DNA of 23,361 nucleotides, taken from a virus. The first letter of the stretch is position 1, and each line of letters opens with the position of its first letter. The DNA lies in the IMG/VR virus record IMGVR_UViG_3300027513_000048, positions 1-23,361 of that record; one strand, 5' to 3'. The position numbers and the translations under genes are program-made. The notes beneath the pieces are model-generated. The model was given only the letters and a program-made list of their open reading frames with translations, ran no database searches and was not told where the DNA came from. This document shows, piece after piece, positions 12,707 to 17,149 of the stretch.

Positions 12707-12979
12707 ATGGCATTGACACAAGCGGGCCGTCCGTTCACGGCCGACGACATTCAGAACACGGCCGGATCGCTGGCGACGTTGCTGCGTGATGCGGTGGCGC
12801 GGGGCGGGCACTTCCGGGTGCAGCTCGAGTCGTGGCCGGATGGCGACCTGATCACGCTGGGGCTGACCCAGGAGGAGATCAACGCCATCAAGGGGTTCTT
12901 CGTCGGGGATCTCCCGGCGATGACGGCGCTGGTGCAGCAGTCGGTGTGGATCAAGCAACTGCTCGGGACCGGGGTGTAG
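12707..12979 (+). CDS. small conserved phage protein at end of tail module
   Basis: A 90-residue protein at ATG 12707 with GAGGAG (12695-12700) at good spacing. It is mostly helical (ADDIQNTAGSLATLLRDAVARGGHFRVQ, TQEEINAIKGFFVGDLPAMTALVQQSV). I do not recognise a named function. It closes the late operon: its TAG overlaps a 7-bp-stem hairpin. It does not look like a holin, since no membrane segment is present. Confidence 0.65.
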   Translation: MALTQAGRPFTADDIQNTAGSLATLLRDAVARGGHFRVQLESWPDGDLITLGLTQEEINAIKGFFVGDLPAMTALVQQSVWIKQLLGTGV

Positions 12980-12997
12980 GCGGTTTCCATAACCGCC
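12979..12997. terminator. hairpin after the tail operon
   Basis: GGCGGTT and AACCGCC form a 7-bp inverted repeat around TCCAT, starting in the stop codon of the last tail gene. No T-run follows, so it is not a classical intrinsic terminator. It could be a weak or factor-dependent terminator or an mRNA end-protecting hairpin. Confidence 0.35.
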
Positions 12998-13010
12998 GTT
13001 ATCAGACCCT
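12992..13010 (+). repeat. repeat module B, truncated copy
   Basis: ACCGCCGTTATCAGACCCT is shared with three other copies (13403, 14468, 15057). Here the rest of the module is missing and TGA follows at once (codons ACC GCC GTT ATC AGA CCC TGA), 3 nt before the next ATG. The stop-then-start arrangement of the full copies is therefore kept even in this diverged one. Confidence 0.8.
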
Positions 13011-13015
13011 GAGCC

Positions 13016-13432
13016 ATGGACAATCAAGCATTGAGCGCGCTGCGAACACTCGTGAAGCAGTGGCGGGAATCCGCTGAGACTCACGCGAACTACGCCGGAA
13101 ATAATCCGAGCGTGGCGCACACCCACGCAGCGAAGGGGCATCGGTTGCTGAAGTGTGCCGATGAACTGGACGCGATTCTCGCTGTAGCGGCGCAGACACC
13201 AACGGGGCAACTGACACGGCCGAAGTCGTCGGCAGAAAAAGACCGCGACCTAGCCATGGAACAGCGGGACTGTCTGCTTGCGGCCCTACAGGCGATCGTC
13301 ACGACCGGCGACGATTGTCCAGCGTGCGACCGTGGCGTGCTTCGGCATCCCGAGAATGGGCACTGGCCGACATGTCCCTTCGGCCACGCGGAAGTAGTGA
13401 TTGCCGCCGTTATCAGACCCTCTACCGTTTGA
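13016..13432 (+). CDS. hypothetical protein with C-terminal Cys/His cluster
   Basis: A 138-residue protein at ATG 13016. The N-terminal half is helical (LRTLVKQWRESAETHANYAG, AHTHAAKGHRLLKCADELDAIL). The C-terminal half has CPACDRGVLRHPENGHWPTCPFGH, which could bind one zinc ion. I do not know a function. Its last residues (IAAVIRPSTV) are encoded by repeat module B, so its natural end was probably replaced when the repeat arrived. It is the first of the accessory genes after the tail operon. Confidence 0.6.
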   Translation: MDNQALSALRTLVKQWRESAETHANYAGNNPSVAHTHAAKGHRLLKCADELDAILAVAAQTPTGQLTRPKSSAEKDRDLAMEQRDCLLAALQAIVTTGDDCPACDRGVLRHPENGHWPTCPFGHAEVVIAAVIRPSTV

Positions 13433-13437
13433 TCGCC
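13403..13437 (+). repeat. repeat module B
   Basis: This 35-bp copy (GCCGCCGTTATCAGACCC... ending GATCGCC) lies directly before the methyltransferase ATG (13438). Its TGA (13430-13432) ends the upstream gene, leaving TCGCC between stop and start, as at 14498 and 15087. No Shine-Dalgarno precedes the methyltransferase start, so expression may depend on coupling through this repeat. Confidence 0.9.
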
Positions 13438-14421
13438 ATGCTGCAAGCGCCCTTTCCGTGGTTCGGCGGCAAGTCTCGCGCGGCACATCTCATCTGGCCG
13501 CGGTTCGGGGACGTGCCGAATTACGTCGAACCGTTCGCGGGTTCGCTTGCGGTGCTCTGGTCCCGGCCGCACGTGCCCAAAACGGAAACCGTCAACGACC
13601 TCGACTGCTACGTGGCGAACTTTTGGCGCGCGGTCAAGTTCATGCCGCGGGCGGTCGCGGAACATGCCGACTGGCCGGTGAACGAGGCTGACCTGCTCGC
13701 GCGTCACGAGTGGCTATTACAGCAGACCGATTTCCGGCAACGCATGCGGACGCATCCGGGGTACTTCGACCTGCAGATCGCGGGCTGGTGGGTGTGGGGC
13801 GCGTGCTGCTGGATCGGTTCCGGCTGGTGCGCGGAACGCGGGGATGGGCATCCACCGGAGCAGCTGCCGCACCTTGGGGACGCGGGGATGGGCATCCACC
13901 GGAGCAAGCTGCCGCACCTTGGGGACGCGGGGATGGGCATCCACCGGAGCAAGCTGCCGCACCTTGGGGACGCGGGGAGGGGCAGCGCCATCCGGGACTG
14001 GCTGACCGCCCTGTCCGAACGGCTCCGCACGGTGCGCGTGGCCTGTGGTGAATGGGATCGCGTGCTCGGGCCGTCAGTGCTCGACCGGCACGGCGTGACC
14101 GCGGTGCTCCTAGACCCGCCCTATTCCGCTCTAGAACACTCGGTGGAATATTCCGGGGCTCAGGCCGACGTGGCTGCGGATGTGCGCGTGTGGGCCGAGC
14201 AGAACGGCGACAACCCGAATCTGAGAATTGCCCTATGCGGCTACGACGGGGAACACGAACTGCCGGAGGGGTGGACGTGCGTTGATTGGAAGGCGCGCGG
14301 TGGGTACGGTTCGCAGAGTGACGGGCGCGGGCGAGACAACGCCGACCGGGAACGGATCTGGTTTTCGCCGCATTGCCTGCGGGTGCCGCATGCGAAGCAG
14401 CGGGAGCTGCTGTGGGCGTGA
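13438..14421 (+). CDS. DNA N6-adenine methyltransferase (Dam / D12 class)
   Basis: A 327-residue methyltransferase that would transfer a methyl group from S-adenosylmethionine to adenine in DNA, for example to protect phage DNA or regulate genes. Motifs: WFGGKSR (residues 8-14), EPFAGS (31-36, cofactor binding), VNDLD (52-56) and catalytic DPPY (226-229), in D12-class order. Residues about 135-181 hold a 15-residue repeat, LPHLGDAGMGIHRSK, in three copies, coded by a 44/45-bp DNA tandem repeat. This forms an insert between the target-recognition region and DPPY. ATG 13438 is chosen because MLQAPFPWFGGK is the usual start. No matching restriction enzyme is next to it, so it looks like an orphan enzyme. 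Target site unknown. Confidence 0.9.
   Translation: MLQAPFPWFGGKSRAAHLIWPRFGDVPNYVEPFAGSLAVLWSRPHVPKTETVNDLDCYVANFWRAVKFMPRAVAEHADWPVNEADLLARHEWLLQQTDFRQRMRTHPGYFDLQIAGWWVWGACCWIGSGWCAERGDGHPPEQLPHLGDAGMGIHRSKLPHLGDAGMGIHRSKLPHLGDAGRGSAIRDWLTALSERLRTVRVACGEWDRVLGPSVLDRHGVTAVLLDPPYSALEHSVEYSGAQADVAADVRVWAEQNGDNPNLRIALCGYDGEHELPEGWTCVDWKARGGYGSQSDGRGRDNADRERIWFSPHCLRVPHAKQRELLWA
13840..13973 (+). repeat. triple tandem repeat (44, 45, 45 bp) inside the methyltransferase gene
   Basis: Three head-to-tail copies begin GGGGATGGGCATCCACCGG at 13840, 13884 and 13929. Copy 1 lacks one A in the GAGCAAGCTG part, so the first half of copy 1 is read in a different frame (GDGHPPEQ) from copies 2 and 3 (GMGIHRSK). 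The second half (LPHLGDAG) is in the same frame in all three. The gene stays open throughout. Confidence 0.95.
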
Positions 14422-14502
14422 CGGCGACCAGTCCGGCGACCAGTGCCACGTTGGCGGGGCTAGAATGACCGCCGTTATCAGACCCTCTACCGTTTGATCG
14501 CC
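14419..14502 (+). repeat. composite spacer module A + B
   Basis: It begins at the methyltransferase TGA. GGCGACCAGT occurs at 14423-14432 and 14435-14444, two nt apart, followed by GCCACGTTGGCGGGGCT. Then comes a ten-codon ORF MTAVIRPSTV (14465-14497, module B), then TCGCC and the next gene's ATG. The module-A pair has the same architecture as the paired 10-mers that flank attP. Confidence 0.9.
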
Positions 14503-14769
14503 ATGCCACAAGAACCGCGACCCGTGCCGACCGATCAGCGCAGGCCCGATCCGCCACCGGCCCCGCCGCGCCGAGGACGTATCGAACGCGAAGCACACGC
14601 CTATTTGTCGCGGCTGCTGACGCACTACGCGCCCGACTGCGAACCCCTGCCGGATCTGCTCGGGCTGTGTTCGCAGATCGACAATCTGCTCACCGGCGGG
14701 GCTTGTGTTGATGAGGAAAGGCTCAACTATGGATGCTCTACGACATCGCGCTCGACGCGCCGTTCGTAA
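14503..14769 (+). CDS. small hypothetical protein
   Basis: An 88-residue basic protein at ATG 14503, immediately after module B and with no Shine-Dalgarno of its own. The N-terminus is rich in Pro and Arg. The middle has a helix REAHAYLSRLLTHYAP and CEPLPDLLGLCSQIDNLL. The last 13 residues overlap the next gene in another frame and look non-conserved. Function unknown. Confidence 0.45.
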   Translation: MPQEPRPVPTDQRRPDPPPAPPRRGRIEREAHAYLSRLLTHYAPDCEPLPDLLGLCSQIDNLLTGGACVDEERLNYGCSTTSRSTRRS

Positions 14770-15013
14770 TCTCCGTGCTGGGAACCCGAGCCGGGAAGCA
14801 CTGAACGCGGCGGCGAACATCATCGAGGCGTTATTGGACGAGCGTTACCCGCTGCCGCCCGTGACGGGTGTGAGTCGGACAGAGCCTCTGGGACCAGACG
14901 ACGAACGTGTCGAAGAGCGTGCTGACCGCACAATCGAATCAGAGAATGAGGATGTGTGTTGCTGTGTGTTCGCGGTACATGACAAGTGCCCAGTGCATGG
15001 GGCGCAGGGCTGA
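14729..15013 (+). CDS. small hypothetical protein with C-terminal Cys cluster
   Basis: A 94-residue protein. ATG 14729 is favoured because GAGGAAAGG sits at good spacing upstream (14713-14721). The N-terminus is a basic helix (DALRHRARRAVRNLRAGN), followed by REALNAAANIIEALLDERYP. The C-terminus has VCCCVFAVHDKCPVHG, a possible metal site. The TGA is also the first three bases of the next spacer module. Function unknown. Confidence 0.5.
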   Translation: MDALRHRARRAVRNLRAGNPSREALNAAANIIEALLDERYPLPPVTGVSRTEPLGPDDERVEERADRTIESENEDVCCCVFAVHDKCPVHGAQG

Positions 15014-15091
15014 CGGCTCCCCGTCCGGCGACCAGTGCCACGGGGGCGGGGCTATGACCGCCGTTATCAGACCCTCTACCGTTTGATCGCC
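15011..15091 (+). repeat. composite spacer module A + B
   Basis: Same order as at 14419: upstream TGA, a paired 10-mer (diverged GGCTCCCCGT at 15015-15024 and exact GGCGACCAGT at 15027-15036), GCCACGGGGGCGGGGCT, the ten-codon MTAVIRPSTV ORF (15054-15086), then TCGCC. Here the codon that should start the next gene is GTG followed by TGA, so the gene once attached has been lost or replaced. Confidence 0.9.
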
Positions 15092-15117
15092 GTGTGATTC
15101 ACAGAGGGAGTATGCCG

Positions 15118-15303
15118 ATGGGGCTGCCTGCGATTGAGGGCGTTTTCATGAACCGTAGCATCGCGGACTTCCAGCGGGCCTGTCAGGTGCACATCGCCGA
15201 AGAACAGCGGCGACCGAACCCAGACACTGCTTTAATCGCGCTGCTCTGTGATGCTGTGCGGTGCTCTCGTGAACTGGCGCTCAAAGGCGAAGTCGTCCGT
15301 TGA
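15118..15303 (+). CDS. small hypothetical protein
   Basis: A 61-residue protein. ATG 15118 has GAGGGAG (15103-15109) at good spacing; ATG 15112 and GTG 15094 are in-frame alternatives. It is helical (SIADFQRACQVHIAEEQRR, DTALIALLCDAVRCSRELALKGE). The pattern resembles small phage proteins of unknown role. Its TGA is followed by the next spacer module. Confidence 0.5.
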   Translation: MGLPAIEGVFMNRSIADFQRACQVHIAEEQRRPNPDTALIALLCDAVRCSRELALKGEVVR

Positions 15304-15365
15304 CGGCTCCCAAGCGACCTGTCGATGGCTCCCAGTCCGGCGACCAGTGCCACGGGGGCGGGGCT
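15301..15365 (+). repeat. spacer module A (no module B)
   Basis: After the upstream TGA comes a partial GGCTCCCAAG, then GGCTCCCAGT (15327-15336) and GGCGACCAGT (15339-15348), two nt apart, and GCCACGGGGGCGGGGCT. The following gene has its own strong GGAGGAGGA ribosome binding site instead of module B. Confidence 0.85.
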
Positions 15366-15383
15366 GTTTGGAGGAGGAGATCA

Positions 15384-15590
15384 GTGAGTGCGATCACGGT
15401 ATTGCGCGACGGCGACGACTGGGATGTGTGGATGAATCTCGACGATGGGACGACGGCCCCTGGCGGTCTGTCGTTCGTCATCGGCAGCGGGGCGACCCGT
15501 GACGAAGCCGTCGCGGACGCCGTGAAGGACTTGGAAGCGGCGCTCGACCAGCTCCAGCAGCCGATGCCGGTGGCCTCCTCAAAGGGCTGA
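15384..15590 (+). CDS. small DUF1902/HicB-antitoxin-like or hypothetical protein
   Basis: A 68-residue acidic protein at GTG 15384 behind GGAGGAGGA (15370-15378). The layout, strand ITVLRDGDDWDVWMNL, then GGLSFVIGSGATRDEAVADAVKDLEAALDQL, is strand-strand-helix. It loosely recalls the small HicB-type fold with its Thr-x-Asp/Glu-Ala helix start. No HicA-like toxin lies beside it, so a toxin-antitoxin role is not claimed. Function unknown. Confidence 0.55.
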   Translation: MSAITVLRDGDDWDVWMNLDDGTTAPGGLSFVIGSGATRDEAVADAVKDLEAALDQLQQPMPVASSKG

Positions 15591-15645
15591 CGGTTCTATC
15601 GGTGACGGCGACCAGTCCGGCGACCAGTGCCACGTTGGCGGGGCG
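15588..15645 (+). repeat. spacer module A
   Basis: It starts at the upstream TGA. GGCGACCAGT lies at 15607-15616 and 15619-15628, two nt apart, followed by GCCACGTTGGCGGGGC and then the next ATG (15646). This copy is almost identical to the one at 14423, which points to recent duplication or exchange. Confidence 0.9.
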
Positions 15646-15897
15646 ATGACCATGCGAGAGACTGAACAGGACCGACTCCAGCGGCGCGGCTTCGACGGGC
15701 TGTACCACCCCGACCCGGCGATGCAGTGCGGCTGCTTTCTGCACGACCTGCGCCCCTGCGGGGAAGTCGGCACCGGGTGCCGTGGGGGGCACGCCAACGC
15801 GGAGGGGACCGGGGTGTTCCGGCCTTCTGTACGGCGAGATTCAGTGACGACGGCTACCAGTCAGGCTACCAGTGGCCGTTTTATTGGGCTTTTTTGA
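15646..15897 (+). CDS. small Cys-rich hypothetical protein, C-terminus runs into att arm
   Basis: An 83-residue protein at ATG 15646 (ATG 15652 also possible). The core FDGLYHPDPAMQCGCFLHDLRPCGEVGTGCRGG resembles small Cys-rich phage proteins that probably bind zinc. The last 17 residues (VTTATSQATSGRFIGLF) are encoded by the paired 10-mers and T-rich DNA left of attP, so the original stop has probably been lost. Function unknown. Confidence 0.55.
   Translation: MTMRETEQDRLQRRGFDGLYHPDPAMQCGCFLHDLRPCGEVGTGCRGGHANAEGTGVFRPSVRRDSVTTATSQATSGRFIGLF
15852..15873 (+). other. putative left arm-type sites of attP
   Basis: GGCTACCAGT occurs twice (15852-15861 and 15864-15873), two nt apart, 30 bp left of the tRNA-identity core. 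The same pair recurs right of the core at 16081-16102 in the same orientation. Paired short repeats flanking an att core are typical of integrase arm-binding sites. Confidence 0.65.
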
Positions 15898-15903
15898 TGT
15901 TCC

Positions 15904-15954
15904 TTTGGGCTCATAACCCAAAGGTCGCGGGTTCAAATCCCGCCCCCGCAACCA
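15904..15954 (+). other. attP: attP core: 3' part of an initiator tRNA-fMet gene
   Basis: The sequence matches the 3' part of an initiator tRNA from the anticodon stem on. It has stem TTGGG/CCCAA around loop CTCATAA with anticodon CAT, variable AAGGTC, T-arm GCGGG-TTCAAAT-CCCGC, acceptor strand CCCCGCA and encoded ACCA. Three G-C pairs in the anticodon stem and A at position 72 are initiator hallmarks. The 5' half is absent, so this is not a working tRNA gene. It is the phage copy that restores the host gene after integration. It lies 28 bp from the integrase stop. Confidence 0.88.
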
Positions 15955-15982
15955 CTTCCAACCAATAGAAACGGGCCTGATT

Positions 15983-17149
15983 TCACGGTTTCTGCCCGGA
16001 AACCTTCGCCGTAGGCCTGTTTTCGGCCTGTGACAAATTAGGCCTAGTTTTGACTAATCGGGACCCGTCGGGACGCTGAAGGCTACCAGTCAGGCTACTA
16101 GTCCAGCCGATGCGGCCCTCGAGGTGCTTCGCGGTCGCGCGGGTCTTGGCCAGGATGTGGCCGGCATAGATGCGGGTCGACTTCACATCCTTGTGCCCGA
16201 ACCAATCCTTCATTTCTTCCCAGCCGACGCCGGCCTCGCCCAGGGTGATCGCGACGGTGTGCTTGGCGTTATACGGCCGAATCGATGTGGGCCAGCCGGC
16301 GGCGTACAGATCCTTGGCGTAGTCGCTGCCGTCAAAGTCGCCCCACGCCTGGGCGGCGTCGAGCGCCGCGAACGCGACCCGCAGATCGCGGGTCAGGATG
16401 ACCGGAATCGGTGTGCCGCCCTTCGCCGGGCGCACCAGCCAGACCCCGCGCTTCAGGTCGACATCCTCCGGCGTCGCGCGCTTGAGTTGCGCCGGCCGTT
16501 GGCCGCTCGCGGTCAGCACCATATAGCGGGCGAGCGTTTTCGGATCGGTCAGTTTCCGCGCGACCCGGCGCACGGTGGCGACGGGGACAAACTTCGGATC
16601 GGCGGCGGGTTCTTCGAGCTTCGGGATGTCGTCACACGGTGTCGCGGCTCTGGGGCCGTCGATGAAATGGTAGAGCGCCCGCAGTGCCCGGATGCGGTGG
16701 TTGCACGTCTTGGGGCCGATCGGTTGGGTGACGCGGGCGGTGGTGCCCTTGCCCCCGCGGGGCGTCGTGCGCCAGCGCAGCCGGATGTCGAGAATCGTCT
16801 CGCGCGTAATCTGGTGGCGCGGGATCTCGCCCAGGTCGGGCAACCAGGCGTTGATTTCGCAGCAGAGCGCCGCATAGCCCGCGGGGACCTTCCCATCCGG
16901 TCCCGGCATTTTCGCGTGCTCGAGGTAGCGCGCGGCATCGACGATGAGGCGATCCTTTGAGACCGGCGCCTGGCCGTCGCTCAGGGCGATCCGCGTGCGG
17001 TTCTGCCAGTCGAGGATCTGTTTCAGGGGCGTGCCGCGCTTGAACCGCTGCGTCGCCTGGCGCTTGTTGGGTTTGGTGCCGACCGCGACATAGGCGCGGA
17101 CGCCGTACTGGTCTTCCGTGATGCCTCTGTGTCCGTCATAGGCGCTCAC
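15983..17149 (-). CDS. int: phage tyrosine recombinase / integrase
   Basis: A 388-residue integrase that would recombine attP with the host fMet tRNA gene. It has an N-terminal arm-binding part (about 1-60), a SAM-like core-binding domain (about 65-165), then the catalytic domain: Arg in TASGQRPAQL (R218), Lys in PAKGGTPIPV (K243), box II RPYNAKHT (K296, H297), WFGHK (H319) and nucleophile Tyr in STRIYAG (Y328). Box II has Lys where most members have Arg, and the usual first His is replaced. The last 40 residues run past the normal end, and codons 349-357 coincide with the right arm sites. The GTG start overlaps the upstream gene's stop (GTGA). Confidence 0.92.
   Translation of the reverse strand: MSAYDGHRGITEDQYGVRAYVAVGTKPNKRQATQRFKRGTPLKQILDWQNRTRIALSDGQAPVSKDRLIVDAARYLEHAKMPGPDGKVPAGYAALCCEINAWLPDLGEIPRHQITRETILDIRLRWRTTPRGGKGTTARVTQPIGPKTCNHRIRALRALYHFIDGPRAATPCDDIPKLEEPAADPKFVPVATVRRVARKLTDPKTLARYMVLTASGQRPAQLKRATPEDVDLKRGVWLVRPAKGGTPIPVILTRDLRVAFAALDAAQAWGDFDGSDYAKDLYAAGWPTSIRPYNAKHTVAITLGEAGVGWEEMKDWFGHKDVKSTRIYAGHILAKTRATAKHLEGRIGWTSSLTGSLQRPDGSRLVKTRPNLSQAENRPTAKVSGQKP
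16081..16102 (+). other. putative right arm-type sites of attP
   Basis: GGCTACCAGT (16081-16090) and GGCTACTAGT (16093-16102), two nt apart, lie inside the 3' end of the integrase gene. They match the pair at 15852-15873. They are about 127 bp from the core, far enough for DNA bending between arm and core. Confidence 0.6.

Follow-up and report, generated by a model that had tools for sequence, protein, structure and literature searches.

We analysed a 23,361-base IMG/VR record of an uncultured temperate phage, hereafter the window, in which two short repeats, termed modules A and B, recur among the small genes ahead of the phage attachment site attP. We hold with moderate confidence that both modules are cassette-junction repeats, and that B is in addition a start-associated leader acting at the level of nucleic acid. 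In the putative model, the region from the last tail gene to attP would consist of exchangeable cassettes of one gene each, arranged as an array. Module A would mark the 3′ end of many cassettes and supply their stop codon (TGACGG...), and module B would mark the 5′ edge of other cassettes, with its last base abutting the start codon. The two modules would provide short homologies at which cassettes get joined and swapped between phages, the genes being moved most likely by homologous recombination. Furthermore, B may affect translation and help initiation: it would stand in for the Shine-Dalgarno (SD) region of the gene behind, and would place a stop codon only a few nucleotides ahead of the start. 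Ribosomes arriving from upstream would then be let go next to the following start.

Modules A and B mark the edges of small genes

In the window, terminase, capsid, portal and tail genes are followed by small genes at 12.98–15.90 kb, the attP core and a tyrosine integrase gene. The attP core (about 15904..15954, plus strand) corresponds to the 3′ part of a tRNA-Met gene from the anticodon arm to CCA, with about 90% identity to phage tRNA-Met genes, and the integrase gene lies on the minus strand at 15983..17149 (Phage_integrase PF00589, E 2e-8). The modules and the small genes described below are all on the plus strand. A preliminary description had interpreted B as a portable translation-coupling leader built on a ten-codon minicistron, and had counted four copies. 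This count is borne out: the B core GCCGTTATCAGACCCT occurs exactly four times in the window, at 12995, 13406, 14471 and 15060, against 0.10 expected in shuffled sequences even with three mismatches allowed, and none of the shuffles reached four.

The four copies differ in form and in what follows them. Copy 1 (12989..13012) is a short form (ATAACCGCCGTTATCAGACCCTGA, then GCC and the ATG at 13016) with ATA at the position of the mini-ORF start codon; it reads CCC TGA GCC ATG, which places TGA 3 nt before the ATG, as had been described. Copy 2 (13400..13437), a long form with ATT in place of the mini-ORF start, adjoins the methylase start at 13438, and its frame ends the ORF 13016-13432 (...VVIAAVIRPSTV*), in agreement with the earlier claim that this copy closes the upstream gene. 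Copies 3 (14465..14502, right behind module A) and 4 (15054..15091, also behind module A) are long forms, and both contain the complete ten-codon ORF that had been reported, reading ATG ACC GCC GTT ATC AGA CCC TCT ACC GTT TGA (MTAVIRPSTV*). The further claim that a start codon follows both complete copies is right for copy 3, whose TGA lies 5 nt before the ATG at 14503, and wrong for copy 4, which continues as TCGCC GTG TGA. Given this GTG TGA, copy 4 is probably vestigial; the most likely start of the gene behind it is the ATG at 15118, which is preceded by AGAGGGAG. That merely two of the four window copies have the mini-ORF ATG is accounted for by the partner module A, which was absent from the preliminary description.

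Module A, TGACGGC(T/G)(A/C)CCAGTCCGGCGACCAGTGCCACG..GGCGGGGC, also has four copies in the small-gene stretch. In copy 1 (14419..14460) the first TGA is the stop codon of the methylase gene, and GGCGACCAGT occurs twice, 12 nt apart; in copy 2 (15011..15052) the TGA is the stop of gene 14729-15013. The initial bases of copy 3 (15322..15364) are altered to TCGATGG, and copy 4 (15602..15644) leads straight into the start of gene 15646 (GATGACCATG), with no B. With A and B read together over 14419-14505, a TGA ends an incoming gene in each of the three frames: the first opens A, the second overlaps the ATG of the mini-ORF and the third closes B.

The genes between these modules begin or end at module edges. 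A gene with no assigned function (13016..13432) starts right behind B copy 1. It is followed by a D12-class adenine DNA methylase gene (13438..14421; PF02086, E 8e-9), which starts right behind B copy 2 and has its stop inside A copy 1. Two more genes with no assigned function lie at 14503..14769, starting right behind B copy 3, and at 14729..15013, the latter common to two other records, G004 and G006. Within the methylase gene, 45-nt direct repeats at 13833-13984 encode repeated LPHLGDAGMGIHRSK, and methylase homologues in other phages have similar repeats at the same place in varying number. In gene 13016, a 46-bp stretch (13204-13249) gives an 89% match to G006 sequence directly behind B, so that this gene looks like a mosaic of two cassettes.

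A search with the 18-mer CCGCCGTTATCAGACCCT matched six IMG/VR records, which at three or fewer mismatches hold 12 B copies, two of them duplicates (G005 closely matches G001). Including the window, there are 14 distinct B copies and about 16 A copies, all in the accessory region; the copies of each module are related to each other, and such counts overstate the number of independent events. The portability proposed for B is thus confirmed, with 14 distinct copies before unrelated genes across six phage records. According to tblastn of the window proteins, structural genes are common to the window, G001, G003 and G006 and are not shared by G002 and G004, which indicates that the modules cross phage types. 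Scanning IMG/VR with the A pattern returned five records only, all of them B carriers, and one more record, L195, in which A occurs solely at attP, came up with a broader A pattern.

Homology blocks between records, as obtained by pairwise blastn, break at the module edges. In G001 and G002, a 617-bp block at 96% runs to the final base of B, beyond which the two records diverge; a block common to G006 and the window stops at the base after B; and G004 shares gene 14729 with the window up to the first base of A. Moreover, a G002 gene that exactly fills the interval between B and A has its match in the G004 gene at 34541, which has neither module. Altogether, 9 of 22 block ends fall within 4 nt of a module edge, against 0.4 for random positions, a descriptive figure given that homology naturally ends where genes end, that each block contributed both its sides to the count and that the choice of edges came after the blocks had been seen. 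That homology stops at B's 3′ edge and at A's 5′ edge suggests that genes are exchanged as ORF-precise cassettes.

Exact 18-mer matches in bacterial genomes (L011-L016) have unrelated flanks and are at chance level. A loose B pattern gave 109 stretches in IMG/VR, mostly chance hits among the matches listed, and narrower patterns were then run. Relatives of the methylase (L017-L030) contain neither A nor B, and among 30 loci with relatives of the last tail gene, B was found in none except G001 and G005; a 13/16 match at L191:3706 was rejected, as such matches are expected by chance among these 30 loci.

Start codons behind module B

In all 14 copies B is oriented as the gene behind it, with the start codon 0–9 nt behind the module in 11/14 and farther away in 3/14. 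An in-frame stop lies 3–7 nt before the start in 11/14 copies, and 0–7 nt before it in 13/14, counting two altered G001 copies and setting aside window 15060 and G003:15052. What is constant in B is its nucleotide core and its position immediately ahead of a start codon, together with, in most cases, a stop 3–7 nt upstream of that start.

The starts behind intact B have no SD. At 13016, 13438 and 14503 the pairing energies are −1.9, +0.6 and +0.6 kcal/mol, whereas many other window genes have an SD of about −5 to −12 kcal/mol, and across the records 11 of 11 starts behind intact B are without SD (+0.6 to −2.2 kcal/mol). For the module itself, the pairing energy with 16S rRNA is +0.6 (long form) or about −2 kcal/mol (short form), as calculated with the anti-SD of a generic bacterium, which may not be that of the host. 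In contrast, all three genes behind a degenerate B have an SD (G001:14002, −9.3; G001:14951, −7.0; window 15118, −8.5 kcal/mol). The earlier statement that the following genes lack an SD applies to 13016, 13438 and 14503 and would fail for the gene behind the copy at 15054, whose most likely start is 15118. Since an intact B leaves an SD no room, its lack there is automatic; the presence of an SD behind degenerate B does not follow from B's own sequence.

A native methylase homologue in L024 seems to start at an ATGA overlap with an upstream 158-codon ORF, and in G004 the counterpart of the G002 cassette gene has its start immediately behind a TAG. Both suggest stop-start coupling in places that have no B; a stop shortly before the start may be what such genes need, and B may supply it.

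Minicistron, scar or regulator site

The coupling leader originally envisaged, in which B is a minicistron where the ribosome ends at TGA and restarts at the next gene, is in our judgement unlikely. Its portability, the SD-less starts and the stop just before the start all stand; the minicistron itself does not. When the B frame was followed in every copy, a start codon was found in 6/14 (two of the four in the window), all directly behind A (ATG five times, TTG once), and the remaining 8/14 have ATA (five), ATT, GGA or GTC at that position. At window 13406 and G006:15320 the upstream gene reads through B in frame, and the G004 copy and G006:14595 have an in-frame GTG upstream of B; in 5 of the 8 start-less copies, no upstream ORF started by ATG, GTG or TTG enters the B frame. 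Rather than the conserved start, short ORF and stop of a translational-coupling minicistron, B thus has an optional ten-codon ORF, found only where the module directly follows A. Nor is it intact in homologues: G003:15052 carries a 1-nt insertion (an extra C), and its ORF stops 17 nt beyond the next ATG, a frameshift of the kind that had been named beforehand as refuting. The mini-ORF has no good SD ahead of it (GGCGGGGCT lies 0–4 nt from its ATG). At G001:13951, where B's TGA is lost, a stop stands beside an ATG though no start can open that frame, which implies that such coincidences arise without translation. On the other side, the ORF is complete with a start in 6/6 copies behind A, the start survives both an insertion of 3 nt at 14461, ahead of the ATG, and the ATG-to-TTG change, and short stop-start gaps persist where the 3′ half differs (G001:14916, TAA 2 nt before ATG); the ATGA overlap of the L024 methylase and the TAG-adjacent G004 start agree with such coupling as well. 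By eye, the copies differ by three synonymous changes, three non-synonymous changes and one indel, too few for a selection test. The ten-codon mini-gene is probably not what makes the start module work.

B could instead be a pure recombination scar, with A and B merely homology carried along with cassettes and having no role in expression. The strong coincidence of homology breaks with module edges fits this reading, as does the persistence of B copy 4 and G001:13951, which serve no start. A scan of 12900-16000 for sigma-70-like sites found none, and B was rejected as a sigma-70 promoter; the lack of a promoter-like site in the region also accords with scars. We nevertheless think it improbable, for a neutral scar would be expected neither to lie 0–2 nt from a start codon in most copies nor to go with an SD that is absent behind intact B and present behind 3/3 degenerate copies. 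It is far less probable still that a regulator, of phage or host origin, recognises B as a binding site or RNA hairpin. Long-form B can form a 7-pair hairpin (AUCAGAC-loop-GUUUGAU, −7.0 kcal/mol) just before CGCC-AUG, ending 4 nt before the start, and this hairpin is broken in G001:13951, where no start directly follows B; in addition, three of the short-form copies contain ATAACcgccGTTAT as a perfect inverted repeat. However, the energy is just 1.7–2.0 standard deviations below shuffles (z −1.7 to −2.0), a modest signal that is suggestive only and also fits the scar reading. The short form is without the hairpin and the long form without the perfect palindrome, and no co-occurring regulator gene was identified in this analysis. 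B was also rejected as a tRNA fragment, ARAGORN finding none in the window and the likeness being by eye only.

Related systems and the link to attP

Among known systems, junction repeats with a start-associated B come nearest to the Start-Associated Sequences (SAS) of cluster K mycobacteriophages, whose function is unknown and for which a role in initiation was proposed (Pope et al. 2011, PMC3203893). SAS and B are both short asymmetric repeats in one orientation, a few nucleotides before the starts of unrelated genes (non-structural ones for SAS), and in both the upstream stop codon can fall inside the repeat. The 13-bp SAS are scattered over half a genome, contain AGGAG and can pair with 16S rRNA (PMC3203893), whereas B is 22–38 bp long, is restricted to the stretch before attP, is paired with the stop-side module A, and has neither an SD nor AGGAG in any intact copy. 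The B consensus GCCGTTATCAGACC... does not match the SAS sequence GGGATAGGAGCCC at two or fewer mismatches, and, with a generic anti-SD that may not be the host's, B lacks the pairing of SAS with the 3′ end of 16S rRNA.

As for the joints, lambdoid and other phages carry morons, single accessory genes between modules with short shared boundary sequences at the joints, which typically have their own promoter and terminator (PMC3029335). Single accessory genes are likewise added here with short shared sequence at the joints, but two defined repeats form the joints: B stands at starts, and A, which matches attP-adjacent sequence, stands at stops. Another parallel for joint-mediated shuffling is offered by a repeated composite at gene junctions in T4-like phages, the PeSL promoter-terminator cassettes, intergenic repeats that were reportedly proposed by Comeau et al. 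in 2014, a study cited in PMC5931544, to mediate modular shuffling. PeSLs contain an early promoter and a terminator stem-loop; in contrast, no promoter-like site was found here, and array copies of A, rejected as intrinsic terminators within the array, lack a T run and are no more stably folded than shuffles. The attP-adjacent A copies do end in a T run. Integron cassettes are defined by an integron integrase and attC sites; the only integrase seen here is a phage tyrosine integrase.

If A and B are cassette joints with a start leader, they would provide a testable account of how single foreign genes are gained beside attP and how the added genes are translated with no SD. They would also serve as search tags for moron genes in uncultured phages, here a DNA methylase, a PAPS-reductase-like protein and an unassigned gene common to two phages, and B would be a second, SD-free example alongside the still unexplained SAS of cluster K phages.

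The 5′ half of A recurs at attP. GGC(T/G)ACCAGT occurs twice with a 12-nt period upstream of the attP core in the window, G001, G004, L165, L191 and L195; in the window this pair (GGCTACCAGT twice, 12 nt apart, 15852..15873, plus strand) constitutes candidate P-arm integrase sites. In the window and L191, the integrase gene contains a similar decamer pair within its 3′ end, downstream of the core, which in the window gives candidate P′-arm sites (GGCTACCAGT / GGCTACTAGT, 12 nt apart, 16081..16102, plus strand). By analogy, these pairs have the layout of integrase arm-type sites. It is conceivable, though we consider it quite doubtful, that A is a duplicated attP arm, that new genes are gained singly beside attP through the integrase or through recombination at copies of the arm, and that B is an SD-independent initiation leader making any captured ORF expressible immediately. 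The arrangement in L195 fits A having started as an attP-side boundary that was copied with each added gene, an order of events that we infer from sequence comparison. At about 640-780 of the reverse strand of L195, module A and attP come immediately after the last tail gene and no accessory gene intervenes, an apparently empty form of the region. On its integrase side, L195 has GGCTGTCAGT repeats in place of the decamer pair.
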